Under the pieces are notes generated by a model. It saw only the letters and a program-made list of their open reading frames with translations. It had not been told where the DNA came from and searched no databases. A DNA stretch of 64,000 nt, taken from assembly GCA_026391455.1 (NCBI GenBank), contig JAPLEH010000001.1:124001-188000 (forward strand). Reading direction: 5' to 3'. Origin of the DNA: Bacteroidota bacterium. Lineage in GTDB: Bacteria; Bacteroidota; Bacteroidia; Chitinophagales; Chitinophagaceae. Numbering within the stretch: the stretch's first letter is position 1; each line of letters opens with the position of its first letter. The translations under genes were made by a program, and so were the position numbers. This document shows, in pieces, positions 42,954-63,917 of this stretch.

Positions 42954-43260
42954 ACAATCGTTTTAGAAAGCCTGTTCCGGATGCGAAAACAGTACCTTAA
43001 AAGGATGATTAAAAATACCAAATCCGGTGGCGGTGACAGGTAAAATCTCCGCAATCGTTGCCGGAGAACTGCGACCGGGGGGAAAGTATTGTTGAGTGCA
43101 TAAATGGTTGTAATAACGTGTGTTAGCGCTATGCTTTCATCGGAAAAACAGGGTTCGGTTTCTACCCTTTCAGTGGCAATTACTCCGACGCGAGGTGATA
43201 TCATTAATTTTCAGTAATTTTATTCAATGGCTAAACATTAATTAATTAACCATAGGTTCC
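42954..43260. other. Divergent regulatory interval between uxaC and ygiD
   Basis: No gene is seen in these 307 bases. They hold the uxaC promoter, a degenerate operator at 43050-43069 and the promoter of the divergent ygiD-like gene. A C/G-rich stretch near 43025-43080 contrasts with A/T-rich sequence beside ygiD. Confidence 0.6.
43050..43069. promoter_or_regulatory. Degenerate pectin-locus operator upstream of uxaC
   Basis: The plus strand reads CGCAATCGTTGCCGGAGAAC. It shares CGCAATCGTTnCCGG with the sites at 52106 and 63897, but its right half is not a good inverted copy. It lies about 100 bp upstream of the uxaC ATG. Binding is inferred from the similarity. Confidence 0.5.
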
Positions 43261-44148
43261 ATGCAGCGAAAAAAATTCATTCAAACACTAGCACTAACAG
43301 GTATGGCAGGCGCAGCAATGAAATTACACGAGCTGGGAAAATTCACATCTCAGCTGGACAATACAGAGACGATGCCGGTTCTTTTTCTCGGTCATGGCAG
43401 TCCCATGAATGCGATCGAAGAAAATGAATTTGTAAAGGGATTTCGTGAGGCCGGGAAATCCATTCCTAAGCCCCGAGCGGTGATCTGTGTATCGGCGCAT
43501 TGGGAAACCCGTGGTACATTCATTACTGCAATGGAAAAGCCTCCCACGATACATGATTTCGGTGGTTTCCCCCGCGAATTATTCGAAGTGCAATATCCCG
43601 CTCCGGGTAGTCCTGCCATTGCCAATGAGACAAAGGAACTGATCAAAAAAACAACGGTAGGCCTCGATCAAAAATGGGGACTGGACCATGGTTGCTGGAG
43701 TGTGGTGAAACATTTATATCCGGCGGCCGATGTACCTGTACTGCAACTGAGCCTCGATTATACCCAGCCTGCATCTTATCATTATGAACTGGCGAAAGAG
43801 CTGGCCGCGTTGCGCCGCAAGGGCGTGTTGATTACCGGCAGTGGCAACCTCGTACATAATCTGGGCATGGCCGCATGGGATAAAATGAAGGCGGATAACT
43901 ACGGCTACGATTGGGCCATTGAGGCTTCCACCAAAATGAAAAAATTTATTGAAGACGGCGATCATCAATCGCTGATCAATTATCGTTCACAGGGGAGGGC
44001 CTTCGATCTCTCCATTCCTTCACCCGAACATTTTTTGCCATTGCTCTATATTCTTGCGTTGAAAGAAAAGAATGAAAAGATCTCTTTCTTCAATGATAAA
44101 GCCGTTGCCGGCTCGCTAACGATGACATCTGTTTTAGTTAATAGTTGA
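43261..44148 (+). CDS. 4,5-DOPA-extradiol-type dioxygenase (YgiD-like), possibly exported
   Basis: This 295-residue protein belongs to the class III extradiol ring-cleavage family: LFLGHGSPMNAIE, VSAHWETRG and ITGSGNLVHNLG carry the metal-binding His residues. Unlike E. coli YgiD, an N-terminal leader of about 25 residues starts MQRKKFIQTLALTGMAGAAM, like a twin-arginine-type signal with RK. The natural substrate is unknown. It is the only plus-strand gene within the uronate region and its stop falls within a 7-bp array. Confidence 0.85.
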   Translation: MQRKKFIQTLALTGMAGAAMKLHELGKFTSQLDNTETMPVLFLGHGSPMNAIEENEFVKGFREAGKSIPKPRAVICVSAHWETRGTFITAMEKPPTIHDFGGFPRELFEVQYPAPGSPAIANETKELIKKTTVGLDQKWGLDHGCWSVVKHLYPAADVPVLQLSLDYTQPASYHYELAKELAALRRKGVLITGSGNLVHNLGMAAWDKMKADNYGYDWAIEASTKMKKFIEDGDHQSLINYRSQGRAFDLSIPSPEHFLPLLYILALKEKNEKISFFNDKAVAGSLTMTSVLVNS

Positions 44149-44253
44149 TAGTTGATAGTTGAAAGTTGATCCTTATAGTTTAAAGTGACTTACTGCAAAC
44201 TGCAATCTATCAACCACCCATTGACTATTCACAATTGAGCATTGACCGTTCAC
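44141..44253. repeat. Two converging 7-bp arrays between ygiD and uxaA
   Basis: ATAGTTG three times then AAAGTTG (44141-44168) starts inside the ygiD stop region. CATTGAC, TATTCAC, AATTGAG, CATTGAC, CGTTCAC (44219-44253) runs into the uxaA stop. Both have a strict 7-bp period. Confidence 0.8.
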
Positions 44254-45905
44254 TAAAGTGAAACGCCTCTTTTCCACGGAATAAAATCATCCTGATTCAG
44301 TAATACGGCTTTGGGAGTTATTTCGCCGCTCGCCGCTTTGATACAGTAGTTAAGAATCTCTTCACCCATTTGTGCAATGGTCTTTTCTCCTTCGATCACC
44401 GGGCCGCAATCAATATCAATGATATCATTCATGCGTTTGGTAAGATTGGAATTGGTGGACACTTTAATCGTGGGACAAACCGGATTGCCGGTAGGAGTTC
44501 CCAATCCCGTCGTGAAAAGAATCAGGGTGGCACCACTCGCTGCTTTGCCGGTAGTGGCTTCCACATCATTGCCGGGTGTGCATACCAGGTTCAATCCGGG
44601 TTTTACGGCAGGCTCTGTATAATCGAGCACATCCACTACAGGGGAGGTACCCCCTTTGCGGGCCGCACCTGCACTTTTCATGGCATCGGTAATCAGCCCA
44701 TCTTTAATGTTTCCCGGTGAGGGATTCATCGAGAAACTGGAGCCCGCTTCGGTAACGATGGTATCGTATCGCTTCATCAGGTGAATGAACTTCTCTGCTG
44801 CTTCTTTTTGTTCCGTGCGGTCGATCAGTTCCTGCTCAACGCCACAGAGCTCCGGAAATTCAGCCAGTAATATTTTACCGCCCAATGCTACTACGAGATC
44901 GGAACAATACCCTACTGCAGGATTGGCCGATATGCCGCTGAATCCATCACTGCCTCCGCACTTTACTCCAATGCATAATTTATCGAGGCTGGCCGGCTTT
45001 CGTTCCAGTTTGTTTATTTCGATCAGACCTTCAAAGGTTTTACGGATCGCATCAGCAATGAGTTGTTCTTCGCTTTGGGATTGCTGTTGTTCGAATATAT
45101 ACAGTGGCTTATCAAAATGCGGATTATATGCCAGCAGGTCTTGTTTGAAATCGGCCACCTGCAGGTTCTGGCAACCCAGGCTCATCACCGTTACCCCACC
45201 CACATTGGGATGATCGGCATAAGCAGCCAGCAGTTTACTTAACACCGCTGCATCCTGTCGAATGCCACCACATCCACCCTGGTGATTGAGGAATTTAATG
45301 CCGTCCACATTTTTAAACAAACGGTCGGTATGATCAGAAGGGTGTTGTGCAAGGGAAGTGCCGGCATCCAGCGCTGCTATATCTAATCCATTTTTATAGG
45401 CAGCGGTTAGCTGTCGGGTATATCGTTTATACTTATCCGTTATGGCATAGCCCAGTTCATTGTGCAGGGCTTCGCGAATCACATCCAGGTTTCTGTTTTC
45501 ACAAAATACGGTGGGGATGAACAACCAGTAATTGGCTGTGCCCACCCGGCCATCGCTGCGATGATAGCCGTTGAAGGTTTTATCCTTCCAGGCCGTTACA
45601 TCCGGTGCTTTCCAGCTATAGTGTGAAGGCCGGTAGGAGAAGGGCTCTGCTGCATGCTTTGTATTTTCAGTGCTGATACGGCTGCCTTTGGAAATAAATC
45701 CTTGTGCTTTTCCCACCAATACGCCATACATGATCACGGCATCAGCCTGATTCAGATCTGCCATACTGAACTTATGTTTGGCGGGTATATTTTCCTGCAA
45801 TACGATCGTGTGGTCTTCAAATATGATCGTTTCTCCTTTGGGAAGATCGCGTAATGCCACGAGTACATTATCATCGGGATGTACTTTTACAACCTGTTGC
45901 TTCAT
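44253..45905 (-). CDS. uxaA: Altronate dehydratase
   Basis: The 550-residue enzyme dehydrates altronate to 2-keto-3-deoxygluconate. It has an N-terminal SAF domain (residues about 10-85) fused to the large D-galactarate dehydratase/altronate hydrolase domain, with GRVGTANYWLFIPTV, NHQGGCGG, GVKCGGSDGFSG and CTPGNDVEATTGKA motifs. The start directly abuts the uxaB stop, TAAATG. The stop lies in a periodic array. Confidence 0.94.
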   Translation of the reverse strand: MKQQVVKVHPDDNVLVALRDLPKGETIIFEDHTIVLQENIPAKHKFSMADLNQADAVIMYGVLVGKAQGFISKGSRISTENTKHAAEPFSYRPSHYSWKAPDVTAWKDKTFNGYHRSDGRVGTANYWLFIPTVFCENRNLDVIREALHNELGYAITDKYKRYTRQLTAAYKNGLDIAALDAGTSLAQHPSDHTDRLFKNVDGIKFLNHQGGCGGIRQDAAVLSKLLAAYADHPNVGGVTVMSLGCQNLQVADFKQDLLAYNPHFDKPLYIFEQQQSQSEEQLIADAIRKTFEGLIEINKLERKPASLDKLCIGVKCGGSDGFSGISANPAVGYCSDLVVALGGKILLAEFPELCGVEQELIDRTEQKEAAEKFIHLMKRYDTIVTEAGSSFSMNPSPGNIKDGLITDAMKSAGAARKGGTSPVVDVLDYTEPAVKPGLNLVCTPGNDVEATTGKAASGATLILFTTGLGTPTGNPVCPTIKVSTNSNLTKRMNDIIDIDCGPVIEGEKTIAQMGEEILNYCIKAASGEITPKAVLLNQDDFIPWKRGVSL

Positions 45906-47417
45906 TTATACAGTTTCTTTTTTTTGTGTCAGCGCTGCAATGGTATTCAATACGCCCTGGCTCATCATCTCGAGCAATTGTTCCTGTACGGCTGCAGCAA
46001 ATCCGGGTAATTGGGTCAGGTCGGTGTTCCAGTATTTTTCATTGCTTAATACTTCCGTCACTACGTTCTCCGGGGTATTGTTTTCCCATACAGTATAAAA
46101 ATACGAAGCCGCATCGTCTTTTATTTCATACGGAACGCCGTTTCTGCTGCCATAATATTTCCCTTCATTAACTGTATCTGCTTTCATGAAAAGCAGGAAG
46201 CCTGCAAAGCCAGTGGCCATATGCATGGGCGGGGTGCTGTGAAGTTCATAGTGATGCAGCAGCAGGGGTACATTGCGCATGGCCATTTTAGATGTATACT
46301 GTACGGTGATACTGATCCATTGATGATCAATATAGGGATTGCAGAACCGTTCGAATACCCGGTTGGCAAATTCTTCTTTCTGCCGGGCATCGATTGTAAA
46401 TGGTATGGCCGGTGCTATTTCGCCATGCATCAGGTTACGGGCAAACACCGAGAAGGTAGCATCGGTAATTGCCTGCCGGGTGAGTTCAAATCCGGAGAGA
46501 AAGGCCAGCCCGCAATTGAAACTATGTGTGCCATTGAGCAGCCGCAGTTTTAATTCTTTGAAAAGTGTGATATCAGGCACAATGATCACGCCATCATCGG
46601 CTTTGCCAAATGATAAGACTTCTTTTACTTTTTCATCTCCTTCGATGGCCCAGAGGCGAAACACTTCGCTCATGGTAAGCAGTTCATCGGTATAGCCGAG
46701 TGTGGCTTCGAGCCGGGCCATTTCTGCTTTGCCGGGTTTGCCGGGCACAATCCGGTCCACCAACGAATTGCAAAAGGTATTATGATTTTCGAGCCACTCG
46801 ATAAAAGCAAATTCAAGGTTATTACGATGGGCCAGTTCGAGTACAATGCTTTCCAGTTTGCTGCCATTGTCGGTAATGAGTTCAGTAGGTACGATCACCA
46901 TACCACTGGCCACACTGCCATTGAACGCTTTGAATCGTTCGAATAAAAAGGCGAGCAACTTTCCGGGAAAAGATACAGGTGGTTCGAGGTGAATATCATC
47001 CTGCACCAATTGTATGCCCACTTCCGTGGTATTGGATAGAATGATTTTCATTTCCGGATTATGCGCACATTCCAGGATGCGCTTCCATTCTGTTTTGGCA
47101 CTCAGCACCCTGCTGATGGAGGCATTGACGATATTCTCTTCCACGGTTTCGCCATTATCGGTACCACGCACGCAAATGGTATAGAGACCATCCTGGTTGT
47201 CGAATGCACTGCTGTCGCTGTCGGTGGATTTAACCACCACCACGCGGCCATTGAAGATTCCCTGTTTATTGGCTTTATCAATGAAGTAATCGGGTAAGGC
47301 CCTTAATAACACACCGGTACCAAACTGGAGTACTTTTTCCGGCAGTTCAAATACCTGTTTGCCCGGTATCTGGATTCCTGCCTGTATGGAGTCTATGGTT
47401 TTCTTCGATAACTGCAT
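45906..47417 (-). CDS. uxaB: Tagaturonate reductase (altronate oxidoreductase)
   Basis: A 503-residue mannitol-dehydrogenase-family enzyme that reduces tagaturonate to altronate with NADH. The N-terminal nucleotide fold contains VLQFGTGVLLRALPDYFIDK, and the catalytic segment includes KLRLLNGTHSFNCGLAFL with the conserved Lys and Asn/His. It is 47 bp after the divergent pectinesterase gene, so it is likely read from the GH28 transcript. Confidence 0.93.
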   Translation of the reverse strand: MQLSKKTIDSIQAGIQIPGKQVFELPEKVLQFGTGVLLRALPDYFIDKANKQGIFNGRVVVVKSTDSDSSAFDNQDGLYTICVRGTDNGETVEENIVNASISRVLSAKTEWKRILECAHNPEMKIILSNTTEVGIQLVQDDIHLEPPVSFPGKLLAFLFERFKAFNGSVASGMVIVPTELITDNGSKLESIVLELAHRNNLEFAFIEWLENHNTFCNSLVDRIVPGKPGKAEMARLEATLGYTDELLTMSEVFRLWAIEGDEKVKEVLSFGKADDGVIIVPDITLFKELKLRLLNGTHSFNCGLAFLSGFELTRQAITDATFSVFARNLMHGEIAPAIPFTIDARQKEEFANRVFERFCNPYIDHQWISITVQYTSKMAMRNVPLLLHHYELHSTPPMHMATGFAGFLLFMKADTVNEGKYYGSRNGVPYEIKDDAASYFYTVWENNTPENVVTEVLSNEKYWNTDLTQLPGFAAAVQEQLLEMMSQGVLNTIAALTQKKETV

Positions 47418-47464
47418 AACACAGATTTATTAATTATCAGATCAGTTCGTTGTTGTCAACTGTT

Positions 47465-48472: not shown

Positions 48473-50394
48473 TTGATTACCGCCTGTTTAAGTAACCATT
48501 GTACCAGATCTTCGGCTGCTTTATAATTCTGATAGATCGCCGGTATCTTCCGGCCGTCCACATATTCATTATAAAACCAGGGATCGCCAACGGCAAAGAC
48601 AGTGCCTTTACCCACTTTGGATACAGACATGATCACTTCTCCGTTTTCACTGTATACACTGTTAGCAGGTTTTGACAGGGTTTGCGTACAGAGTTGTTTG
48701 ATAAAAACCGCTTTGGCAGTTTTAAAAATGGGATGATTTTCCGGGATAAGCAGTTTTCCCTGCTCAAATTGGTTGTCGATCACATCATGCCGCATATTCT
48801 CATTCCAATGAATACCGAAGCGGGCGGCGAGTTTATTATAGTTGGTGAATTCCACATTATTACTATCGTTGGCCATCATGACGAGTACTCCACCGTTTTT
48901 TACATAATTGTATAAGGCATCGATATGAGATGGCTCAATATAATTGGGTGTTTTATTTTCCTTGGGCCAGTCGGGGTCGATGAGAAAATAAACGGATACA
49001 TTTTTCAGGTTGTTGGCAGTGGGTGCTTCATCCAGTAACGTTGGTGATACGCCATATTTATTGAAAATATGATTCACAAAACCGTAGCCGCCATTATCTT
49101 TTTCATTCCATTTGTAGTGGAAGACTACTTTTTTGCCAAATGCATCTTCATGCGTTTCCCGGTTGAAATAATTATCCATGACCACTTTTTTACTCTTACC
49201 AATAGATAAAGTGGGAATCATTTCCATTTCATTGGCAGCGAGCAAAAATGCTCCCATTCCTTTGGGATCATTCTTGATCACGGGTTCGCTCATGTAATAG
49301 GTAAAGCTTCCATCCCGATAGGGATTACCGCCAAGGCCGGATACTTTTACGGTGCCATAGAGATTGGTCTGTCCGTTTTCGTACATCACAAACCGGTTCA
49401 GTATGCCGTTGTATCCTTTTTGTGCAACGCTCAGCATGGAAACCGGTAAATAGCCTTTGCGAACACCTTTGGCGATGGCATATACAAACTGACAACTGGC
49501 AGATGCCTCTACATAATTTTTTTCTTTATCCTCTCCGTTGTAGTGGAGGATATCTTTCCAGAGACCGTTACCGGGATCTTGTTCTTTGCTGATGGCCGTA
49601 GTCAATCGTTGCAGGATGGCAATTAATTCTTTTCGTTGCGGGTGTCCGTCAGGAAAATGATCCAGTACATCCACCAGTGCGGTGGCATACCAGCCCATTG
49701 CCCTCGCCCAGAACAGGGGAGAGCAGCCGGTTACTGGATCAGCCCATTTCATCTGTTTGCTTTCATCCCAGGCGTGATAGAGTAATCCTGTTTTGGGATC
49801 ACGTGCATGTTTTTCAATGCGGATAAACTGGTAGGCAATATCATTGAATGCGGTGTCTTCGTGTGCCAGAGAGGCATATTCTGCATAAAAGGGTTGGCCC
49901 ATGTACAATCCATCGAGCCATACCTGGTAGGGATAAATTTTCTTGTGCCAGAAACTGCCTTCATTGGTGCGCGGATGCGTTTGCAATTGCTGCCGGAGGA
50001 GTTTTGCTGCTTTTAAATATTTTTCTTTTAATGTAACACGGTAAAGAAGCAACAGCAATTTGCCATTGTTGATATGATCGATATTGTATTCGTCGGGTTT
50101 ATAGGTTTTGATGGTGCCATCGTTTTGTACAAAAAAATCCATCTGCTGCTGGATATAATTGAAATAAGTCGCATCTCCGGTATTCATCCAAAGACCTTCA
50201 AACCCTTTCAGGATTACGCCCATGTCATAGGTCCATTTGGCAGGTTTTCCATCCAGCGCGAATGAATCCTTCCAGGTATTCATGATCGTTGCTGCAAGTT
50301 TAGCTGCCTGTGGCCCGGACCTGAACGACGTGCGCTGGCCTTCCGATGAATTTACGACGGTCAGCAGGATCAGTATGAATAGCGTTTTTTTCAT
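48469..50394 (-). CDS. Unsaturated rhamnogalacturonyl/uronyl hydrolase (GH105/GH88) with C-terminal domain
   Basis: This 641-residue secreted protein (signal peptide 1-19) has an (alpha/alpha)6 GH105/GH88 domain in residues about 25-390. The likely catalytic Asp is Asp161 (WLDGLYMGQPFY); NIDHINNGK (Asp106) is another conserved site. It removes the unsaturated 4,5-uronyl residue left by lyases. Residues about 400-641 (VSVYFLIDPDWPKENK, GGVLVMMANDSNN, GKGTVFAVGDPWF) look like a DUF4350/ThuA-like Rossmann-type domain of unknown role. It overlaps both neighbours by 4 bp as ATGA. Confidence 0.9.
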   Translation of the reverse strand: MKKTLFILILLTVVNSSEGQRTSFRSGPQAAKLAATIMNTWKDSFALDGKPAKWTYDMGVILKGFEGLWMNTGDATYFNYIQQQMDFFVQNDGTIKTYKPDEYNIDHINNGKLLLLLYRVTLKEKYLKAAKLLRQQLQTHPRTNEGSFWHKKIYPYQVWLDGLYMGQPFYAEYASLAHEDTAFNDIAYQFIRIEKHARDPKTGLLYHAWDESKQMKWADPVTGCSPLFWARAMGWYATALVDVLDHFPDGHPQRKELIAILQRLTTAISKEQDPGNGLWKDILHYNGEDKEKNYVEASASCQFVYAIAKGVRKGYLPVSMLSVAQKGYNGILNRFVMYENGQTNLYGTVKVSGLGGNPYRDGSFTYYMSEPVIKNDPKGMGAFLLAANEMEMIPTLSIGKSKKVVMDNYFNRETHEDAFGKKVVFHYKWNEKDNGGYGFVNHIFNKYGVSPTLLDEAPTANNLKNVSVYFLIDPDWPKENKTPNYIEPSHIDALYNYVKNGGVLVMMANDSNNVEFTNYNKLAARFGIHWNENMRHDVIDNQFEQGKLLIPENHPIFKTAKAVFIKQLCTQTLSKPANSVYSENGEVIMSVSKVGKGTVFAVGDPWFYNEYVDGRKIPAIYQNYKAAEDLVQWLLKQAVIK

Positions 50395-52037
50395 TGATTC
50401 GTTACCATTTTATCGGCTGCACCGAGTTCGTACACGATCTTTTGTTTGGCCTTGCTGGCATCTGTATTCGTAATGCGAATATTACCACAGCGTTCTCCAC
50501 TGATGCGAAACAGCAACTCACTGCCATTTTTATAATCAATGCGGTCGAAGACCAGGTTATCACTTTGCACCACATCGATCACCGGGTTGGTTTCCTCACT
50601 GATTACCCGGATATTTTTGAACGTGATGCCGCTGGCTTCCTGGATGTCTATTCCCTTATGGGCCTGCAATACCATATTTTCAAGCAGAATATCTTTTACA
50701 TGCATCTCCGGAATGCCGCGAATGAAGATGGCTTTCTCCGCTCCGTTGCAATACACATTGCTGATGGTGAAATTTTTGAATACAGGTGTGGTCTCATCCA
50801 CGGGTTTGAATTCTACTTTGGGCAATTCTCTTTTTTCACCGGCAAGGGGTATGGGGTCTTTGGCGGCATAATACATATCGAAGAGTATGGCTTCGCCCAC
50901 GATATCCTTCATGTAAATGTCTTTGATGAAAATATTTTCCACCAAACCGCCGCGTCCGCGGGTGGTTTTGAAACGCAGGCCGATATCGGTACCGATAAAC
51001 GTACAATTGCTCACATACATATTGCGGGCACCGCCGCTCATTTCGCTGCCGATCACAAATCCGCCATGCGAAGCATATACTGTGCAGCCGCGGATGATCA
51101 CATTCTCGGTGGGGAGCCCTCTTTTTCTTCCTTCGGCATCACGGCCACTTTTCATACAGAGTGCATCATCGCCCACATCGAATACTGAATTTTCGATGAG
51201 TACATTTTTGCAGCTCTCCACATCGATGCCATCTCCGTTTTGTGCATACCAGGGATTCTTTACAAATATGTTTCGTACAGTGAGCTGTTCACACATCAGC
51301 GGATGCAGACACCAGGCTGCAGAGTTTTGAAACGTAACCCCTTCAAGCAATACATTTTTGCAACGGGTAAAGACCACCATATTAGGTCGCAGAAATTCTT
51401 TGATGCTTTCATAAAACGCTTCATCTTTTTCCGTGCTGATTACACCGGGATTGCTGAGGCTGGCCCCTTTTTTGGAACGTTCGCTGGGGTACCATGTTTT
51501 TTTGTCTTCGCTCAATACACCACCTGAGGACACCAGTTTTTTCCATTGTGTTTCATTCAGCTTATCCTTTTTTACCATGCGCCAGGCATCTCCATTTCCA
51601 TCAATGATGCCTTTCCCGGTAATGGCGATATTGGTGGCATTGGTGGCAGAAATGGGCGATTGATTGCGCATTTGCGGCAGGCCTTCCCAATTGGTGGCTA
51701 CCAGCGGGTACTGATCAAAGTCGGTGGTGAATAATATGGTGGCACCCTGGGCGAGGTGCAGATTGATATTACTTTTCAATACGATGGGGCCGGTAAGCCA
51801 AAGGCCGGCGGGTACCAGTACGGTGCCCCCGCCCGATTTTGCCAGTGCATCAATGGCAGCGTTGATACTTTTGGTATTCAGCGTGAGCCCATCGGGAACA
51901 GCATTGAAGGTGGTAATACTAACCGTTTTCGATTTGAACTGTGGAGTGGTTACCACAGGCAGTTTCCATTGCTGTGCATAGCCAGCAAAAAACAGCAATA
52001 GTGCGGGGATAAATGCAATTCTTTTATTCATTGGCAA
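50391..52037 (-). CDS. Polygalacturonase (GH28)
   Basis: A 548-residue secreted protein (signal peptide about 1-21) with a right-handed beta helix that hydrolyses alpha-1,4-galacturonan. GH28 residues are complete: Asp272 in NGDGID, Asp290-Asp291 in VGDDALCMKSG, His324-Gly325 in ASHGGFVIGS, and Arg355/Lys357 in LRFKTTRG. The start may be the ATG at 52031 instead (MNKRIAF). Its transcript begins at its own promoter/operator (52055-52126) and continues into GH105, CE8, uxaB and uxaA. Confidence 0.95.
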   Translation of the reverse strand: MPMNKRIAFIPALLLFFAGYAQQWKLPVVTTPQFKSKTVSITTFNAVPDGLTLNTKSINAAIDALAKSGGGTVLVPAGLWLTGPIVLKSNINLHLAQGATILFTTDFDQYPLVATNWEGLPQMRNQSPISATNATNIAITGKGIIDGNGDAWRMVKKDKLNETQWKKLVSSGGVLSEDKKTWYPSERSKKGASLSNPGVISTEKDEAFYESIKEFLRPNMVVFTRCKNVLLEGVTFQNSAAWCLHPLMCEQLTVRNIFVKNPWYAQNGDGIDVESCKNVLIENSVFDVGDDALCMKSGRDAEGRKRGLPTENVIIRGCTVYASHGGFVIGSEMSGGARNMYVSNCTFIGTDIGLRFKTTRGRGGLVENIFIKDIYMKDIVGEAILFDMYYAAKDPIPLAGEKRELPKVEFKPVDETTPVFKNFTISNVYCNGAEKAIFIRGIPEMHVKDILLENMVLQAHKGIDIQEASGITFKNIRVISEETNPVIDVVQSDNLVFDRIDYKNGSELLFRISGERCGNIRITNTDASKAKQKIVYELGAADKMVTNQ

Positions 52038-52054
52038 TCAGCCGTTTTACGATA

Positions 52055-52087
52055 CAAGTCTAACCAGATATTCACTGTTTATACAGT
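52055..52087 (-). promoter_or_regulatory. Promoter element of the GH28 transcript
   Basis: On the minus strand a GAATATCTGGTTAGACTTGT block includes TAGACTTG, one base from the Bacteroidota TAnnTTTG -7 element (52055-52062). It begins 25 nt after the A tract that follows the operator at 52106-52126, the same spacing as before susC. The GH28 ATG at 52037 is only about 18 nt beyond the -7 element. Confidence 0.55.
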
Positions 52088-52105
52088 ATTTAGCTTTGTT
52101 TTTTT

Positions 52106-52126
52106 ACGCAATCGTTACCGGGAACG
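52106..52126. promoter_or_regulatory. Pectin-locus operator upstream of the GH28 gene
   Basis: The plus strand reads ACGCAATCGTTACCGGGAAC then G. Its core CGTTACCGGGAACG is palindromic (CGTTnCCGGnAACG), as for LacI-family operators. It is about 70-90 bp upstream of the GH28 start and matches the site before susC over 21 positions with two differences. Confidence 0.6.
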
Positions 52127-52149
52127 TGGTCATGTAGGCCGGGTCTTTC

Positions 52150-52578
52150 TCAACTGAATTTCACTGCCTGCCGGGCCAGTAATTTCCATTGGCCTTTCTG
52201 CTTTTGCCATACCAGCAACACTTTCAGTTGCACTTCACCGGGCTTGCCATCATCGTTGGTTTTAGCTCTCAGTATATGGCGTACCAGTGCTGTTTTACCA
52301 GAAATCGTTACGGTCTGCTCCGATAATTCGATCGATACAAAATCCGATTTACCACTTACGAGCTTCTCAATAAAGGTATTTCTGTTGTCTACATGGCCGC
52401 TGCTGTGTCCGTAGCTCAGTTGAGGCAGGGTAAGCGCTTCCAGCTTTGCTTTATTGGCATCCACCATGGCAGACCGCAAGGCTTCCACGGCTTCCAATAT
52501 CCCTGTAGTGCGGGGTTGCTGGGCAGATATGGAAATGGTACAGCAAATAATAGCGGCAAGTAATACTATTTTTTTCAT
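52150..52578 (-). CDS. Secreted NTF2-like (SnoaL/DUF4440) protein
   Basis: A 142-residue protein with a signal peptide (MKKIVLLAAIICCTISISAQ). The rest (ALRSAMVDANKAKLEALTLP, LSYGHSSGHVDNRNTFIEKL, VLLVWQKQKGQWKLLARQAV) follows the NTF2-like/DUF4440 pattern. Such small proteins are common in carbohydrate loci of this phylum; a binding or accessory role is possible. It is 28 bp after the GH43 gene and just before the GH28 promoter. Confidence 0.8.
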   Translation of the reverse strand: MKKIVLLAAIICCTISISAQQPRTTGILEAVEALRSAMVDANKAKLEALTLPQLSYGHSSGHVDNRNTFIEKLVSGKSDFVSIELSEQTVTISGKTALVRHILRAKTNDDGKPGEVQLKVLLVWQKQKGQWKLLARQAVKFS

Positions 52579-52606
52579 CGTATGCTTTTTTCAATATGCA
52601 AATGCG

Positions 52607-56192: not shown

Positions 56193-56947
56193 TATTTTTT
56201 TACTTCCCGTATCACCACCCGTTCGGTGAGTTCAATATTTAAGGCCCGTAATTCTTTCAGCACCAGTTGTGCAATGAGGCGGGCACCCAATTCGGTGAAA
56301 TGGGTATTATCTGTTTTCCCTTCGGGATAATTGGGATGTTCGCCGGGTTGTAGTTGTAAGAAAAGTAATTTGGAATGTTCTTCACCCATTTGCTGATAAA
56401 GCGCCCTGCTTTTTTCATCGAGGTCAATGAAGTGTACGCCTGTTTCAACAGCCACTTCTTTTACGAGTGCGCTGTACTGCTCGTGTGTGAGTATGGCGTT
56501 GCCTGTTTTATCAAATTTGCGGCGCGATACGGGAGTAAAAAGAATGGGTGTAGCTTTTTTTTCTCTTGCTTCGCGGATAAAACGGTTCAGGTTCATCTTG
56601 AATGTATCCGGAGTAGCATAGCGTTCTTTCTTTTCTACTGATTCATCGTTGTGCCCAAATTGAATGAATACATAATCACCTTCACCGGCTTCATCATAGA
56701 CGCTTTTCCAAAGGCCCTCACTGATAAAGGTTTTGGTACTGCGTCCGTTCTTGGCCCTGTTCACAACTGTTACGGTGGAATCCCAGAAATACACAAAGGG
56801 CATACCCCATCCTGTTTCGGGATAGGCTTTTGTTTCTTTAATGCTCATGGTGGAATCGCCAGCCATGAAGATCTTTATTTTCTTTTTAGCGGGGAATGCA
56901 AGTGACATACATACGATGGTGCCGGCCAGAATTACAAAGGATTTCAT
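56192..56947 (-). CDS. Rhamnogalacturonan acetylesterase (CE12, SGNH)
   Basis: A 251-residue secreted SGNH hydrolase (signal peptide about 1-20). Blocks: Ser32 in FMAGDSTMS, Asn100 in IQFGHNDE and Asp213/His216 in TDNTHFTELGA. This fits CE12 enzymes that deacetylate rhamnogalacturonan I. It overlaps PL1 by ATGA and the next gene by one base, so all three are translationally linked. Confidence 0.93.
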   Translation of the reverse strand: MKSFVILAGTIVCMSLAFPAKKKIKIFMAGDSTMSIKETKAYPETGWGMPFVYFWDSTVTVVNRAKNGRSTKTFISEGLWKSVYDEAGEGDYVFIQFGHNDESVEKKERYATPDTFKMNLNRFIREAREKKATPILFTPVSRRKFDKTGNAILTHEQYSALVKEVAVETGVHFIDLDEKSRALYQQMGEEHSKLLFLQLQPGEHPNYPEGKTDNTHFTELGARLIAQLVLKELRALNIELTERVVIREVKK

Positions 56948-58368
56948 TTTACGAAACTATTTAAATAGATCTCAATATTGGTAAAATGTGAATGGAGTGA
57001 ATGGTGTGCTGCATCGGCGGGATCGTTGGGATTGAGTTTATTCCTTTTTTCCCAATCGTCCGGCATGCCATCGCGGTCGGTATCGGCTGGTGCCGGTAAC
57101 TGCTGCAATGCAGGCCATGCACCGATCGTTTGTTCATAAGGTGTGCCGTGAGGAAATCCTCCCTGTACATCTACAAAGTTTCCGGTACGGTTGCGTACAT
57201 CATTGATGATCCGTATGTCCATAGTATCTCTTTTATAGCTGGCACCTGCTCCCTGCAATACAAATGAATAGGCTTGCTCGGCCGTTTCTGCCGGAAGGGC
57301 TATTGCGGGTACAGGTGTGTTGATGAGAATATTTTTTTTATCTTCTTCGGTGCCACCATTACCGATGGTCACGCCGAGTTCATTGTTGCGCGTAATGAGT
57401 TTTGCATCGTCCACATAATTATCCTGCACATACCATTTACCAAAAGGAATAAGCGGTGGGGTATCCCGTTTGCCCGGGTTGGCAATGCGATAGCGTACGG
57501 ATTTATTGGTGGATGGGCCGTATTTAAAATAATTGGCCACAATATTATAATTCCCTCCTTCACCGGCATACATGGTATTGCTTCCCCAGTTGTAGATCAC
57601 ATTGTAGCGAAAGTCAACATTTTCTTCCGGGCAATTGCGGATACCATCGAAGCGGGGATTGCGGTTGTTGCAATGGGCAAAAAGATTATGGTGTGCCGAC
57701 AGATGGCGGCCACCCCAGATGCCACCGTATCCATGGTGTTCGAAATCTTTATCACCGGTTTCGAAATGATACGAGTAGTTGAGTGGTTCGGCAATGATAT
57801 TCCATTGCAGGGTGGTGCTGTCGCCGGCATAGATGGATAGTACTTCATCGGTACTCCAGCTAAGGCTGCAATGGTCGATGAGTATATTCGTTTTGCGGGT
57901 ACCTCCAAAGGCATCATCATGTCCGCTTCCGTTTACCATGCCTTTGTTTTGGTACCGGTCGCCCATGCGGAAGCGGAGATACCGAACAATGATATTATTG
58001 CCGCCCAGTGATACGGGATGATCGGCCAGGCAAATACCATCACCGGGGGCGGATTGTCCTGCAATGGTAATATCTCCTTTGATGCTTACGGGCGATTCTA
58101 AATGAATGGTACCAGATACCGTAAACACTACAATGCGCGGATATTTAGCGGATACCGCTTCGCGAAAACTTCCCGCGCCATTATCGTTGAGGTTATCCAC
58201 GATCAGCACTTTGCCGCCGCGGCCACCGGTGGCATATTTTCCAAACCCTTCAGCACCGGGGAAAGCAACAGGCTCGTTGGTAGTGGTGGTCACTGTTTTT
58301 TGTGAATGCGCACAGGCACCCAGCAATAAGAGGCAGGAGGTTTGTATGATTGAAAATAATCGCTTCAT
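56944..58368 (-). CDS. Pectate lyase (PL1) lipoprotein
   Basis: A 474-residue beta-helix enzyme with lipobox LLGAC (Cys19), so it is probably anchored to the outer membrane. PL1 motifs: FPGAEGFGKYATGGRGGKV, ILIDHCSLSWSTDE (calcium-site Asp), RNPRFDGIRNC with the catalytic Arg, and YNWGSNTMYAGEGGNYN. It cleaves polygalacturonan by beta-elimination. The C-terminal DTDRDGMPDDWE looks like a thrombospondin-type-3/EF calcium loop. It is the first gene after susD and lies beyond a hairpin. Confidence 0.94.
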   Translation of the reverse strand: MKRLFSIIQTSCLLLLGACAHSQKTVTTTTNEPVAFPGAEGFGKYATGGRGGKVLIVDNLNDNGAGSFREAVSAKYPRIVVFTVSGTIHLESPVSIKGDITIAGQSAPGDGICLADHPVSLGGNNIIVRYLRFRMGDRYQNKGMVNGSGHDDAFGGTRKTNILIDHCSLSWSTDEVLSIYAGDSTTLQWNIIAEPLNYSYHFETGDKDFEHHGYGGIWGGRHLSAHHNLFAHCNNRNPRFDGIRNCPEENVDFRYNVIYNWGSNTMYAGEGGNYNIVANYFKYGPSTNKSVRYRIANPGKRDTPPLIPFGKWYVQDNYVDDAKLITRNNELGVTIGNGGTEEDKKNILINTPVPAIALPAETAEQAYSFVLQGAGASYKRDTMDIRIINDVRNRTGNFVDVQGGFPHGTPYEQTIGAWPALQQLPAPADTDRDGMPDDWEKRNKLNPNDPADAAHHSLHSHFTNIEIYLNSFVK

Positions 58369-58399
58369 GTACTGTACTCTTCAAGACGTGATTAAGAAA

Positions 58400-58439
58400 A
58401 TAAGGCTGCATCCTTCGTTCAGCAGGGATGCAGCCTTAT
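58400..58439 (-). terminator. Hairpin between susD and the pectate lyase gene
   Basis: A perfect 14-bp stem (58400-58413 with 58426-58439) with a 12-nt loop, followed on the minus strand by TTTTC, lies 20 bp past the susD stop. It should attenuate readthrough so that the transporter is made in excess of the enzymes. Confidence 0.8.
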
Positions 58440-58459
58440 CCAAATTAACAATAAGTGGA

Positions 58460-60322
58460 TCAGTAATTTGGATTTTGCGATAAATTAAAATTAGCATCTC
58501 TCGCCGGCTGCGGTATGGGCAGCAATTCTCCTTTGCCGGTTACAAATCCGGTAGCAAAGCGGGATACCGCGGTCGTATTGATGGCAGCACTCAGCCAGGT
58601 TACGCTGGTAGTACCCGCAGGCGTAGCAGTGGGTGCTGTTCTATACAATGAGTTGGCAAATAATCCGCCGATATTGTTATTATCAGAAGCTGTGCTGCTG
58701 AAATACAACATACGAACCGGTAATGTATTGGTAAGGCAATAGGAAGGATAGCCGGCCATATAGGTGGGTTGCACCATGGCGGTCAGTGTTGACATACGAA
58801 CCATATTGGCTCTTGTTTCTGCAATGGCAGTACCGAGCAGATTCCAGCGGATGAGATCATATTTACGAATACCTTCTCCACCCAGTTCGAGCGCACGTTC
58901 ACGTACGATGGCTTTGAAGAAATCAACTTTTGATAAACCGGCAGGAATATCTACTGAAGCATCGGGCGTGGTAAGCGGTTTGCCATATCCTCTTCTTCTT
59001 ACCATATTGATGGCATTGTATGCTTCTGCCGTAGGACCATTGATTTCATTATCCGCTTCAGCCAACATCAACAGTACATCGGAGTAGCGGATGATCTGCC
59101 ATTTCAGACTGAAGTATTGTATGGCATTGGTGGGAGATACGGTGGGATTGGAGATCCAGTCTCTCCGGTATTTACCATCGCATACAGCAGTAATGGCCTG
59201 GCCGATTTTGGTAGAGCCATTAGCTGCCACATTATAAATAGCCAGCGTTACATCCCGGCGCAGATCGGTAGAGTCAAAAAGGTAGATATAGCTGGGAAGC
59301 GGATTAATGCTTTTATTGCCGAGGTTATTCACGGTAGGCCCATTATAGTAACCAAGTTTGGTATCTTCTGCAGCATTCAATCCGATAGCGCTGGCCTGAA
59401 ACATCAGTTCGCCCTGCGGATCGGCTACTGCCCTTGCACATACCTGGTCTTTCCAGAGCGCGCGGTAGCTGGGGTTCAGTGCATGCTGACCGGAATTAAT
59501 AATATCCGCACATTCTGCTTTCGCGATTTGATAAAAGGACAGATAGTCTGGATTGCGTTGCATACCGCCACCGGTAGCATGCAGGGCAAAGCCGCCGCGG
59601 AATAAAGCGATACGGGCACGTAATGCTTTGATGGCACCTTTGGTAAGGCGTTCATCCACCTGATCGCCAATGGTAGTTACTTCATTTTTCCATGGAACCA
59701 GGGTGGCAGCCAGTTGCAGGTCCGCGAGTATTTTATTGTACAATGTATCACTATGCGTACGGGAAGGGAAGGGGTTATCGTTTACTTGTTTGGCCGCCGG
59801 TACAAAATGTGCGGGAAGATCGCCCCAGTTCCGGATCGCTTCAAAATAAAACTGTGCACGCAAGGCCAGTGCTTCACCATACATCCGCTGCAGTTGTTTT
59901 TTCTGCTGGTCGGTACCTGAATTGTACATATCCATTTTGGGAATATTGTCAATACAGATATTGGCGAATTCAATTCCCTGAAACAATTGGTTAAAAGGAT
60001 TGGTGATCTGAGCATTGCCGGGTGTGGCGGAATAGCGGGCAATATCGCGGCGATCGTTGTCGGAAGAACCGGTGGGGCCCTGCATTTCATCATTATCTAC
60101 AGGATAGTAGAGGCTGAGGCGGATACCATAGCCGGGATCGCCCACGAGGCGGCTGTACACACCGGAGAGTGCTTTGTAGGTGCTTTCCACATCTTTAAAT
60201 ACCACAGCAGCATCCACATCGGTAATAGGTTTCTGATCAAGATATTTTTTGCAACCTGTTGCCGCCACCATTACTAACAGCATGGAAGCGAGACCGGTCT
60301 TTTTCAAAAAATTAGCGTTCAT
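58460..60322 (-). CDS. SusD/RagB-family surface glycan-binding lipoprotein
   Basis: A 620-residue lipoprotein (lipobox ATGC with Cys24, then KKYLDQKPITDVDAAVVF). SusD-like: YLDQKP after the lipid Cys, TPR-like helices with YGEALALRAQFYFEAIRNWG (about residue 135-155), and LLMLAEADNEINGP near the C-terminal third. It caps the SusC barrel and delivers oligosaccharides; the neighbours indicate pectin fragments. It starts 27 bp after susC. Confidence 0.95.
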   Translation of the reverse strand: MNANFLKKTGLASMLLVMVAATGCKKYLDQKPITDVDAAVVFKDVESTYKALSGVYSRLVGDPGYGIRLSLYYPVDNDEMQGPTGSSDNDRRDIARYSATPGNAQITNPFNQLFQGIEFANICIDNIPKMDMYNSGTDQQKKQLQRMYGEALALRAQFYFEAIRNWGDLPAHFVPAAKQVNDNPFPSRTHSDTLYNKILADLQLAATLVPWKNEVTTIGDQVDERLTKGAIKALRARIALFRGGFALHATGGGMQRNPDYLSFYQIAKAECADIINSGQHALNPSYRALWKDQVCARAVADPQGELMFQASAIGLNAAEDTKLGYYNGPTVNNLGNKSINPLPSYIYLFDSTDLRRDVTLAIYNVAANGSTKIGQAITAVCDGKYRRDWISNPTVSPTNAIQYFSLKWQIIRYSDVLLMLAEADNEINGPTAEAYNAINMVRRRGYGKPLTTPDASVDIPAGLSKVDFFKAIVRERALELGGEGIRKYDLIRWNLLGTAIAETRANMVRMSTLTAMVQPTYMAGYPSYCLTNTLPVRMLYFSSTASDNNNIGGLFANSLYRTAPTATPAGTTSVTWLSAAINTTAVSRFATGFVTGKGELLPIPQPARDANFNLSQNPNY

Positions 60323-60349
60323 ATCAGTCGTTTTAAATTGAATGATTGA

Positions 60350-63300
60350 TTAAAAAGTAGCATTGATACCAAAAATATACGTGCGGCTCTTCGGATACGC
60401 AGAGTAATCGAGCGCCGGTGTAAGCGGGTTGCTGCGTACACTTACTTCCGGATCGTAGCCGGAATACTTGGTAATGATGGCCAGGTTATTACCGGTAAAG
60501 TAGAAGCGGAGTTTGCTCATCTTCAAACCTACCAGTTTTTTTACAGGTACACTATAGCCAAGTGATACGTTGTTGAGGCGTACGAAGGAACCATCTTCTA
60601 TCGCCCATGAATGGGGGTAGAAGGCACCTGCACTTTTCAGCGGTTGCCAGATGGTGGCATTTTTATTCAATGCGGACAGTTGATCCGGGGGAATACCCAC
60701 GGCCTGGTTAGCGCCGTTTACATACAATGCTGTTTGTCCGGTGGGCGTGATATTCCTCCAGCGATTTTCCATAATGGCCAGCATGTTGGAGTTGGCGGTG
60801 TATCCATTGGTGAGCTCGATCTTATTGGCATTGTAAATGTCGTTGCCAAATGAGAAGTTTACGAATACGCTCATATCCCATTGTTTGTAGGTGAACTGCT
60901 GGTTCAACCCGCCGGTGCATTTGGGAGTAGGATCACCAATGATCTTACGGTCGTTGTTGATGTCTATTATACCATCACCATTCAGGTCTGAAAATTTGAT
61001 AGAGCCGGGCATTACGGTGCCAATGATGGAAGAGTTGGAAGGTATGCCGGGTTTCAGGGTGTACACGCCGGTGGTATAGTTGTAATTGAAATCATCCACG
61101 GTATAGAAGCCGGCAGTTACGAGTCCGAAGATCGATCCTACGGGAGAGCCGACTTTTTGGATATAATCGGTGGGCTGACCGGATACGCCCCAACTGGCAG
61201 CGGGGAAGAACTGTGTTTGGTTGGTGCCGAGGGCCAGTATTTTATTTTTATTGAAAGAAATGTTGAAGTTGGCATTCCAGTTCAGGTTGTTCTTTTTACG
61301 GAGAATAGCCATGTTCAACTGTACTTCCACACCCTTGTTGGATGTTTTACCAATATTTTGCAATTGGGTGGAATATCCGTAAGTGGGAGGAATGGGTACA
61401 TTCAGCAGCAGGTCTTTCGACGTGTTGTTGTATATGTCCACACTCAGGTCTACACGGCCTTTGAATAAGCTGATGTCAATACCATAGTTGCGGTTTACGG
61501 TAGATTCCCATTGCAGGTTCTCATTTACCAAACCATTGGAATAATACGAAAGGATTGCCTGGTTATTCAGTCCGTAGTAGTAGCGTCCATCGTTGGCAAA
61601 CGTGGTAAGGAAGAGGTAATCAGCAATACGGTTATTACCTACCTGTCCGTAACCAGCACGCAATTTCAGGTCGCTGATGAAGTCCACATTCTTCAGGAAT
61701 TTTTCATTCTTTACTCTCCAGGCTAAGGAACCGGCGGGGAAATAACCCCATTGTTTGCCTGGTGCAAATTTAGATGCCCCATCTGCGCGCATATTGAAGG
61801 AAAGGAAATATTTGCCCGCGTAGCTATAGCTCATTCTTCCGAAGAAGGAGAGATTGGTATAGCGGGTCTTGGCTACTTTGGGGTATCCGGTAAAGGGCAC
61901 ACCCAGCGTGGTTTGTTTAAAAGCGTCGTTGTAGGAAGTGTTCAATGGAAAATCCCGGAAAAGGCTGGAATAGCTTTCGGTACGGAGGTCATAGGTTTCT
62001 TCACCCACGAGAATATCCAGATCGTGTCGGTTTTTATACCCTTTGAGTGAATAGCTGAGTACATTGGAATTGGTATAGGTGGTACGCATGGAGGTATCCA
62101 GCCCTACAATGGCTTTTCTTCCTCCCTGTATAATGGCATAGGGCGTAATAGAGTCGTTGAATTGACGATCGATGAGTTTATTATAATCATACGCGGCCGT
62201 TGAGCGGAACGTAAAGTTTTTCAGGAACGTGTATTGTACAAAAGCGGTTACGTTGTACACATCGGTGGTCTTCTTCCGGTATTCGGCATCGGCCAGCGCA
62301 ATGGGATTGTAAAGGTTGAGTCCGTTGCCCACATTAGGATCGGCAAAGGGATCCGTATCATCAATGTCCTGGTTGAAGGAAAGATAAGGACGATACTTCA
62401 CGGCATTCCGGAGGCGGTTGTACGAAGAGCCTTTGGCATCAGATACACCGGCACCTTCCACATCCTGGTGGGTGAAGCGACCGCCGATACCTACTTTCAG
62501 GTTTTTGGTGATTTTATAATCTCCCTTCAGGTTGAAGAGGTGGCGTTTGTAATTGGAGTTGATCACTACCGCTTTATCGTTGTTGTACGTATAGCCAAAA
62601 TTGTACGTGGCTTTTTTGGTACCACCGGAAGCAGACAGATTATGTGTGGTGCTGATACCGGTATTGCCAAATACTTCATCCTGCCAGTCAACAGGGCTTA
62701 CGTTTTTATAATTCGCGAGTGTATCCCAGGTATAACCGAAATTTTTCAGGAAGTTGGCACTGTCGGTGCTGCTGCCCCGTGAGCGTTCGGATTGGTAGAT
62801 CACATATTCATAGGGGCTGAGTACATCCAGTTTTTTGGCGAGTTCTTTTACGCCCACAAAACCATTGTAGCTAACAATCAGCCGGCCGGGCTTACCACTC
62901 TTCGTGGTAATCACGATTACACCATTGGCACCGCGGGCACCATAGATGGCGGTAGCGGCAGCATCTTTCAGTACGTCGATGGTTTGAATGTCTTGCGGGG
63001 AGATAGCAGAGAGACCATTCTCCACCTGCACACCGTCTACGATGTAGAGGGGGGAGTTATCACCGGTGATGGACATACCGCCGCGAACGCGGATACGGAT
63101 ATCGGCATCGGGAGAACCTTCGGAGGTGGTGGCTGTTACACCAGCCAGCCGGCCATTGAGGGCTTCCGCGGCGGAGTTGATGGGAATATCTTTCAGGTCT
63201 TTGGCACCTACGGAAGATACGGAAGCGAGCAGGTCTTTTCTTCGTACGGTTTGGTAACCGATCACCACCACATCGGATAATGCTTTGGAGTCGGGTTGCA

Positions 63301-63601
63301 TTACCACTTCTACATTTGAATTGGTACCCACCGCGATCTCCTGTGCTACAAAGGAGGTATTGGTGAATACGAGAGTAATGTCGCCATTGGCGGGAACATT
63401 GATCTTGAATTGACCCTTGTTGTCGGTGGTTACCGCGTTGCGGGTGCCTTTTACGGTAACGGTGGTACCGGCTGCGGGTTGCTTATTATCAGCGGAGGTA
63501 ACGGTACCGGTGATTTGCCGGTTTTGCGCCATGGCCAACGATGATAAGCAGGTTGCCAGCAGCAACAGGAGTAAACGTGCTGTTTGAATAGTCCTTAACA
63601 T
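60350..63601 (-). CDS. SusC/RagA-family TonB-dependent oligosaccharide transporter
   Basis: A 1083-residue outer-membrane transporter with signal peptide (1-25), an N-terminal carboxypeptidase-D-like repeat (QITGTVTSADNKQPAAGTTV), the TonB-box segment SDVVVIGYQTVRRKDLLASV, a plug domain and a 22-strand barrel ending in RTYIFGINATF. The substrate is inferred from the locus. The gene starts with ATG at 63601; the 300 bases upstream hold the operator and a short overlapping ORF. Confidence 0.96.
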   Translation of the reverse strand: MLRTIQTARLLLLLLATCLSSLAMAQNRQITGTVTSADNKQPAAGTTVTVKGTRNAVTTDNKGQFKINVPANGDITLVFTNTSFVAQEIAVGTNSNVEVVMQPDSKALSDVVVIGYQTVRRKDLLASVSSVGAKDLKDIPINSAAEALNGRLAGVTATTSEGSPDADIRIRVRGGMSITGDNSPLYIVDGVQVENGLSAISPQDIQTIDVLKDAAATAIYGARGANGVIVITTKSGKPGRLIVSYNGFVGVKELAKKLDVLSPYEYVIYQSERSRGSSTDSANFLKNFGYTWDTLANYKNVSPVDWQDEVFGNTGISTTHNLSASGGTKKATYNFGYTYNNDKAVVINSNYKRHLFNLKGDYKITKNLKVGIGGRFTHQDVEGAGVSDAKGSSYNRLRNAVKYRPYLSFNQDIDDTDPFADPNVGNGLNLYNPIALADAEYRKKTTDVYNVTAFVQYTFLKNFTFRSTAAYDYNKLIDRQFNDSITPYAIIQGGRKAIVGLDTSMRTTYTNSNVLSYSLKGYKNRHDLDILVGEETYDLRTESYSSLFRDFPLNTSYNDAFKQTTLGVPFTGYPKVAKTRYTNLSFFGRMSYSYAGKYFLSFNMRADGASKFAPGKQWGYFPAGSLAWRVKNEKFLKNVDFISDLKLRAGYGQVGNNRIADYLFLTTFANDGRYYYGLNNQAILSYYSNGLVNENLQWESTVNRNYGIDISLFKGRVDLSVDIYNNTSKDLLLNVPIPPTYGYSTQLQNIGKTSNKGVEVQLNMAILRKKNNLNWNANFNISFNKNKILALGTNQTQFFPAASWGVSGQPTDYIQKVGSPVGSIFGLVTAGFYTVDDFNYNYTTGVYTLKPGIPSNSSIIGTVMPGSIKFSDLNGDGIIDINNDRKIIGDPTPKCTGGLNQQFTYKQWDMSVFVNFSFGNDIYNANKIELTNGYTANSNMLAIMENRWRNITPTGQTALYVNGANQAVGIPPDQLSALNKNATIWQPLKSAGAFYPHSWAIEDGSFVRLNNVSLGYSVPVKKLVGLKMSKLRFYFTGNNLAIITKYSGYDPEVSVRSNPLTPALDYSAYPKSRTYIFGINATF

Positions 63602-63783
63602 AAAGCAGTTTTTGTAAATGACCTTGAATGATTCTTTTTGTTATATAATGAAAAGCCCGGATCGGTGATACAGGCAGCAGTGAAAACGAAGGGGGAAGAG
63701 GAGCCGTTGGATGAAATAATCCCATAGCAGGTACAGGTAGTACCGTAACTGGACGTGCATACAGCAGTAGTAGATTTTTTCAT
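63595..63783 (-). CDS. Short Cys/Ser/Thr-rich ORF overlapping the susC start
   Basis: 62 codons from the ATG at 63783 encode MKKSTTAVCTSSYGTTCTCY, continuing with five Cys in all and about one third Ser/Thr. The stop TAA lies in the overlapping string ATGTTAA that also starts susC, which would allow translational coupling. No family is recognised and the frame might be chance within the susC leader. Confidence 0.25.
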   Translation of the reverse strand: MKKSTTAVCTSSYGTTCTCYGIISSNGSSSPFVFTAACITDPGFSLYNKKNHSRSFTKTALC

Positions 63784-63845
63784 TCCGGCAGGCAATTTTA
63801 GCAGGTTTAGTACCAGCAATCCTTTTTATCAGTAGTAAACCAGAA

Positions 63846-63871
63846 CAAGTCTAAACAGAAATTCGCGCTGG
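63846..63871 (-). promoter_or_regulatory. Promoter element of susC
   Basis: The minus strand has GAATTTCTGTTTAGACTTGT, 25 nt beyond the A tract next to the operator. It differs from the GH28 element at two positions. TAGACTTG is one base from TAnnTTTG. Confidence 0.55.
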
Positions 63872-63896
63872 CAGCTTGTTTTCCATGTATTTTTTT

Positions 63897-63917
63897 ACGC
63901 AATCGTTCCCGGTAACG
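63897..63917. promoter_or_regulatory. Pectin-locus operator upstream of susC
   Basis: The plus strand contains ATCGTTCCCGGTAACGAT, an 18-bp inverted repeat of the form ATCGTTnCCGGnAACGAT, within ACGCAATCGTTCCCGGTAAC. It is the most symmetrical of the three copies. A central CCGG with AACG arms is typical of LacI-family operators; the regulator is not in the window. Confidence 0.65.

Follow-up and report, generated by a model that had tools for sequence, protein, structure and literature searches.

A candidate LacI-family regulator and its asymmetric operator-like element in a pectin locus of Chitinophagaceae

The LacI-family regulators UxaR, UxuR and KdgR of Bacteroides are predicted to control glucuronate and galacturonate catabolism (PMC3878776, PMC4052901), and coordinate control of a pectin polysaccharide utilization locus (PUL) with SusC/SusD is described for HTCS_Rgu, a hybrid two-component system (HTCS) of Bacteroides thetaiotaomicron (PMC3878776). 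In the same species, the one-component regulator ManR is predicted for a SusC/SusD-type operon together with the path to central metabolism (PMC3878776), so that a susCD operon under a one-component regulator is in itself no novelty. The LacI-family dual regulators Cra/FruR and PckR, of which Cra activates gluconeogenesis genes and PckR is a predicted activator from the position of its sites (PMC4052901), belong to the central metabolism of Proteobacteria. We analyse here a 64,000-nucleotide stretch of a Chitinophagaceae genome (GCA_026391455.1, contig JAPLEH010000001.1, positions 124,001 to 188,000; hereafter the window), in which an operator-like element precedes the susC, GH28 and uxaC genes of a pectin locus and lies, at susC, beside a divergent lacI gene. 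We consider it fairly probable that a LacI-family regulator, most likely an activator, governs this pectin regulon through the susC and GH28 operators.

The present system shares with UxaR, UxuR and KdgR the protein family, the phylum and the link to uronates. These regulators are described as serving cytoplasmic monosaccharide use, a limited number of genes in the regulons of KdgR and certain others being periplasmic or extracellular (PMC3878776), whereas here the site stands at a near-fixed promoter distance before a susCD importer and before depolymerases. The pectin and rhamnogalacturonan regulons of the HTCS_Rgu type are described with direct-repeat sites and hybrid two-component systems, and ManR as a GntR-family regulator of mannosides, whereas a LacI-family gene and a LacI-type operator are found here, in a pectin context, and, unlike for Cra/FruR and PckR, in a PUL of Bacteroidota. 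The element resembles the PurR operator, given as ACGCAAACGTTTGCGT in RegPrecise (PMC4576408), by its half-site ACGCAA and its central CpG; the PurR consensus is symmetric and purine-related, whereas the present element has CCGGnAAC as its second half and includes an A/T tract. Control of the pectin PUL appears to fall here to a LacI-family protein, with an activator-like geometry and an asymmetric operator. Among the open-access papers listed by our searches, judged mostly by title and start of abstract, we found no description of a LacI-family pectin regulator or activator from Bacteroidota or Chitinophagaceae.

The string CGCAATCGTTNCCGG is found, exactly, at 43050-43064, 52107-52121 and 63898-63912, that is before uxaC, GH28 and susC, as reported by the initial annotation of the window, and relative to its minus-strand gene each copy points the same way. 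No fourth match is present in the window at up to two mismatches (0.55 expected; one of 100 shuffles reached three), in agreement with the earlier statement that intergenic sequence holds no further copy. The genome scan suggested by that annotation, run here by string, shows the element to be specific: CGCAATCGTTnCCGG has three perfect matches in the whole genome (5,515,762 bases, 74 contigs), all at pectin-locus promoters, and nine at up to one mismatch, compared with none for the reversed control, counts that are somewhat flattering as both patterns were derived from the three sites themselves. With this caution, the set is unlikely to have arisen by chance. One of the one-mismatch sites (C4:1283) is without the promoter box described below, and no homologue of the window's pectin genes is found in the surrounding 2.8 kb. 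With three mismatches allowed, TTTACGCAANCGTTNCCG gives 58 matches in its own genome versus 88 for the reversed control, and thus no excess; only near-exact matches are therefore meaningful, and a loose matrix scan would mislead. The susC and GH28 copies have in common a longer flank, ttttttACGCAATCGTTnCCGGnAACGnnGTCAT, which had been overlooked.

It had been stated that the window contains no regulator gene, which is literally true, but a lacI gene begins just past its end. Its ATG (G000:C19:188092) lies 92 bp beyond the last nucleotide of the window, and the palindrome considered below is located within the intergenic stretch common to susC and lacI; a LacI-family gene near a pectin or uronate gene, which had been proposed as worth looking for, is thus found divergent from susC. 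The genome encodes five LacI helix-turn-helix (HTH) domains, and the highest-scoring one adjoins the susC site. The protein belongs to the LacI family by its PF00356 HTH (55.6 bits, cut-off 27) and its periplasmic-binding-protein-like sensor; it gives near full-length matches to the CytR, RbsR, PurR and CcpA models, none of them reaching a listed equivalog cut-off, and likewise to CcpA and PurR structures. As orthologues we took the best 80 of 160 relatives, 62-83% identical in the best segment, whose titles are mostly Chitinophagaceae, Chitinophagales or Bacteroidetes, with many metagenome-assembled genomes, and include Sediminibacterium, Lacibacter, Chitinophaga, Filimonas, Segetibacter and Pinibacter. 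In all 80, Ser18, Ser20, Thr21 and Ser23-Ser29 of the HTH and Leu58 of the hinge are invariant, while Thr19 is kept in 77 and Val22 in 78.

The element is conserved along with this gene. One of the 80 orthologue loci being too short, 79 could be tested for TTTACGCAANCGTTNCCG at up to three mismatches in the 600 bp before lacI, and 69 of these carry the element. At least one site at up to two mismatches is present in 75 of the 80 loci, and none in L031, L062, L064, L075 and L077 on the locus DNA examined. Across 294 genomes of the family, scored for the site at one mismatch and for lacI at E<=1e-100, 105 have both, 12 the site only, 24 lacI only and 153 neither (Fisher 1.4e-41, uncorrected for kinship), and the reversed control pattern matches a single genome. 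As kinship inflates a plain co-occurrence test, site status was shuffled within genera: 42 genomes have both, versus a maximum of 39 in 100,000 shuffles (23 informative genera). Some genera run counter to the trend, with one of each mismatch in g91, site-only genomes in g68, g84 and g103, and lacI-only genomes in g29, g41, g63, g103 and g104. Among 58 relatives, 13 have site and lacI, one the site only (G044), one lacI only (G020) and 43 neither, G023 being scored without lacI (its only match is a 39% paralogue) and G008 with it (a 135-residue fragment, 96% identical); in G020, a two-mismatch site (L198:8428) precedes lacI by 171 bp. Phylum-wide, the site is found at one mismatch in 11 of 296 genomes; it is present in six of the 11 genomes that represent the same family in this sample, while outside the family it matches 5 of 285 genomes, and the control pattern 3. 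The adjacency of lacI, the conservation of the site upstream of its orthologues and their co-occurrence agree with the earlier proposal of a LacI-type regulator, and the adjacent protein very likely binds the sites.

In the 69 orthologous sites, the invariant element is asymmetric, TTTwTTTACGCAAwCGTTCCCG, with a T-rich tract in front. Nine of 18 columns are letter-perfect throughout, and the three-mismatch threshold, although it favours invariant columns, permitted three misses per site. The register ACGCAAwC/GTTnCCGG (the slash marking its centre) coincides with the invariant block, and its central CG is invariant in 69 of 69 sites; LacI-family motifs are reported to be, for the most part, even palindromes with a central CG (PMC4052901). 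An operator of this family would be expected to span 16-22 nt.

The susC and GH28 copies are each exactly 52 bp (start to start) from TAGACTTG, on the correct strand, and this box, also overlooked initially, occurs only twice in the window on either strand. It resembles the Bacteroidetes -7 element TAnnTTTG (PMC7366714). In relatives, CAAnnCTA (TAGnnTTG on the susC strand) is present at 57 of the 69 orthologous sites, at offset -48 in 46, -49 in 10 and -47 in one, which corresponds to 55, 56 and 54 bp, respectively, between the centres of operator and box. Mean pairwise identity is 32% in the spacer versus 92% in the operator, and the distance is thus kept while the spacer sequence drifts. These 57 sites lie upstream of the core promoter at a near-fixed distance, as expected of a class I activator, and, if the box is centred at -7, the operator centre would be at about -62 from the inferred transcription start, close to the -61.5 of class I sites. 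Since this spacing is near-fixed at susC, at GH28 and in relatives, the position of the site favours an activator over a repressor, and the LacI protein probably activates.

We propose that a LacI dimer would bind ACGCAAwC/GTTnCCGg, a degenerate LacI-type operator with a central CpG. At susC and GH28, with the bound centre about 62 bp upstream of the inferred start and the A/T tract on the promoter side, the protein would most likely help RNA polymerase at promoters with the TAGnnTTG -7 box. The trigger would be a pectin breakdown product (galacturonate or a relative), the sensing of which is predicted from knowledge of the family. Import (susCD), depolymerisation (GH28, GH88, esterases, GH43) and intracellular uronate steps would be switched jointly, with uxaB and uxaA included by way of the GH28 promoter if the run of five genes, as gene spacing suggests, is one operon; via the uxaC unit, the predicted set would also comprise the kduI, pfkB-type kinase and KDPG (2-keto-3-deoxy-6-phosphogluconate) aldolase genes, with extents again taken from gene spacing. 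The sites, their conservation, the near-fixed spacing and the adjacency and co-occurrence of lacI are seen directly in the sequences; binding, activation, operator register, operon extents, effector and the past of the uxaC copy are our inferences from them.

Sites away from lacI in relatives are consistent with such a regulon. In seven loci of same-genus relatives (L134-L139, L141), whose GH28 orthologues are 78-84% identical in the fragments seen, the element is present with TAGnnTTG 40 bp past the core, and an eighth site, in L196, has TAAAATTG at the box position. The 80 lacI-centred loci, which do not amount to a genome-wide sample, contain 28 sites not at lacI; when the count is confined to homologues, up to 2 kb away, of genes in the window, the nearest downstream one is susC-like for 18, another pectin-gene homologue for nine and none for one, and the box is present at 17 of the 28. 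In seven of these loci (L037, L041, L045 of Sediminibacterium soli, L053, L055, L065 and L069), lacI is beside a GDSL-GH28 cluster with the susC site about 7-10 kb off, and both sites carry the box.

Several observations weigh against a LacI-type activator acting through this element. Known LacI-family members are mostly repressors. According to a review, the regulators that one computational study predicted for carbohydrate-active enzyme genes are overwhelmingly repressive, the few activators being of the AraC family (PMC10766802). In our own data, 24 of the 129 family genomes with lacI lack the site and 12 of the 117 with the site lack lacI, at the thresholds given above, and the element was not found in the 600 bp before lacI in 10 of the 79 testable loci. 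The C/G-centred register is weakly symmetric: in 53 of the 69 sites, four of its eight pairs are broken. A CAAnnCTA box is missing from the expected place in 12 sites. A conserved -33 TTTG was sought and not found (4 of 57 versus 3.1 in shuffles), which is weak evidence, as in Flavobacterium johnsoniae, too, this motif reportedly escaped identification (PMC7366714). Finally, near-perfect sites without the box exist in close relatives (L130, L132, L143, L145, L147-L149), before other susC-like genes (29-30% identical) in L132, L147 and L148 and before a fasciclin-domain gene in L143; such boxless sites may reflect a wider regulon or a paralogous regulator. Near-perfect copies without a -7 box at the fixed distance are also seen in L189-L194, before susC-like or fasciclin-domain genes where identified; among them, L189, L191 and L194 have similar susC leaders.

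A further point of this kind concerns the uxaC copy. In 10 usable uxaC loci of relatives (one further fragment, L187, was unusable), no site better than five mismatches is found within 700 bp upstream, and the copy in the window has neither the T-tract nor a TAGnnTTG box at the fixed distance. It could thus be a chance match without function, which we consider doubtful: the 5.5 Mb of the genome contain just two other perfect matches, although the pattern was built from all three, and the copy lies in the right orientation 97 bp before uxaC. A site that is shared by related operons, rare elsewhere and conserved is found at susC and GH28, whereas the uxaC copy is not conserved. The earlier proposal of one regulator for importer, depolymerases and uronate enzymes is well supported for the susC and GH28 promoters and not for a conserved uxaC site; because no site was found at uxaC in the usable loci of relatives, and no box is present here at the fixed distance, the case for direct control of uxaC comes from this one genome. 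Its history can be sketched, as uxaC adjoins uxaA on one strand in L054, L065, L069, L072, L081 and L082: uxaC, now separated from uxaA by the LigB gene, may have lost its operon place and appears to have gained an operator of its own.

As to the sign of regulation, the same LacI protein could instead repress in the classic way until galacturonate or an oligouronide releases it. The far-upstream site would then act through a DNA loop, by keeping another activator from working or through repression of the divergent lacI promoter. We regard this as unlikely, even if it would fit with the LacI-family uronate regulators UxaR, UxuR and KdgR described for Bacteroides (PMC3878776) and with the location of the susC site between divergent genes. 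The GH28 site, which has no lacI beside it, keeps the same box spacing, and a centre at about -62, at a near base-pair-fixed distance in 57 of 69 loci, would be unusual for an occluding repressor.

As to the operator, it had been equated with the 18-bp CCGG-centred palindrome, and the site itself is real: the palindrome is perfect at susC, has two mismatches at GH28 (52111-52128), in line with the weaker arm noted there, and is not matched within three mismatches by the uxaC copy, which had been called degenerate. What differs is the invariant element, the asymmetric ACGCAAwCGTTCCCGg with its T-rich tract. A LacI dimer could still read this palindrome, the invariant TTTACGCA flank being then a separate UP-like tract or a partner site. 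The CCGG-centred register ATCGTTnCC/GGnAACGAT is indeed symmetric, with at least seven of nine pairs held (at most two broken) in 41 of 69 sites; it too has a central CpG, and in relatives most of CGTTnCCGGnAACG is retained at the GH28 sites. It is, however, less conserved: its right arm has 0.72 bits per column versus 1.80 in the 16-bp core, at least four of nine pairs are broken in 22 of 69 sites, and the invariant block coincides with ACGCAAwCGTTnCCG. We therefore judge this explanation rather improbable and favour the C/G-centred register, on which the CCGG-centred palindrome would be a partly kept overlay. We gave less weight to the palindrome as sole operator, since many orthologous sites no longer have its right arm.

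That the element is the target of a different regulator, such as an AraC-type or hybrid two-component activator whose gene lies elsewhere, and that lacI is a neighbour by gene order only, is quite improbable: although HTCS, SusR-type and extracytoplasmic function (ECF) sigma regulators are the proposed Bacteroidetes-specific PUL regulators (PMC3878776), the asymmetric element would suit non-LacI activators too and co-variation of the whole PUL would equally link an unseen PUL-linked regulator, no DNA-binding domain is found among the 20 open reading frames (ORFs) scanned in 32354-63601 (two of them without any match), lacI and the site co-vary within genera, and the central CpG is kept beside the PurR half-site.

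Taken beyond this genome, activation by the LacI protein would make it, in place of a membrane-spanning HTCS, SusR or ECF system, a class I activator of the susCD pectin PUL in Chitinophagaceae, with an asymmetric, orientation-locked operator at -62 and with new operators gainable when an operon splits, as at uxaC, a generalization to which we give about even weight. The locus offers a concrete candidate pair of regulator and site for the use of pectin by a family of polymer degraders. If activation is true, cytoplasmic LacI-type PUL activation joins the HTCS, SusR and ECF modes; the near-fixed operator-to-box distance over a randomised spacer makes Bacteroidota promoter geometry directly testable, and at uxaC a regulatory site may have been acquired once an operon had been split.

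The features of the locus are collected in Table 1, in which the uxa gene names were assigned from Pfam families.

Table 1. Positions of the element copies, promoter boxes and genes of the pectin locus (window coordinates unless stated otherwise)
Feature	Position	Strand	Remarks
lacI-family gene, 351 amino acids	G000:C19:188092-189144 (= window 64092-65144)	+	Divergent from susC
In-window part of the susC-lacI intergenic region, lacI side	63920..64000	+	
18-bp palindrome ATCGTTCCCGGTAACGAT	63902..63919	.	Overlaps susC operator; right arm partly conserved
LacI-type core ACGCAATC/GTTCCCGG of the susC element	63897-63912	-	
susC/lacI intergenic operator element TTTTTTTACGCAATCGTTCCCGG (+ strand spelling)	63890..63912	-	Faces minus-strand susC promoter
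TAGACTTG, -7-type box of susC	63846..63853	-	52 bp start to start from operator string CGCAATCG
susC (TonB-dependent receptor)	60350..63601	-	Pfam; first gene of susC-susD-unknown-GDSL-pectinesterase/BD-FAE-GH43
susD	58460..60322	-	Pfam
GH28-promoter operator element TTTTTTTACGCAATCGTTACCGG	52099..52121	-	Core 52106-52121
TAGACTTG, -7-type box of GH28 promoter	52055..52062	-	52-bp spacing as at susC
GH28 (polygalacturonase family)	50391..52037	-	Pfam; first gene of GH28-GH88-pectinesterase-uxaB-uxaA
LigB-like dioxygenase gene	43261..44148	+	Pfam; between uxaA and uxaC, on the strand opposite to its neighbours
uxaC-promoter copy CCGCAATCGTTGCCGG	43049..43064	-	No T-tract; no TAGnnTTG box at fixed distance
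uxaC (uronate isomerase)	41514..42953	-	Pfam; then kduI-like, pfkB-type kinase, KDPG aldolase and MFS (major facilitator superfamily) transporter genes

Other genes of the locus deserve mention. A 474-amino-acid protein encoded at 56944-58368 (minus strand) has no Pfam match over the cut-off and a weak Pectate_lyase_4 match (E 0.041); it is conserved at 43-77% in many orthologous loci and may be a divergent pectate lyase belonging to the PUL. A secreted-looking ORF of 142 amino acids (52150-52578, minus strand), the low end of which is 29 bp from the site core, is found between the GH43 gene and the operator of GH28. Just past the window, downstream of lacI on G000:C19, a glycerophosphodiester phosphodiesterase domain and a GH16 domain are fused in one protein (L009:1811-3349, plus strand), and an IS200-like (Y1_Tnp) transposase gene (L009:3761-4381, plus strand) is located about 2 kb downstream of lacI.

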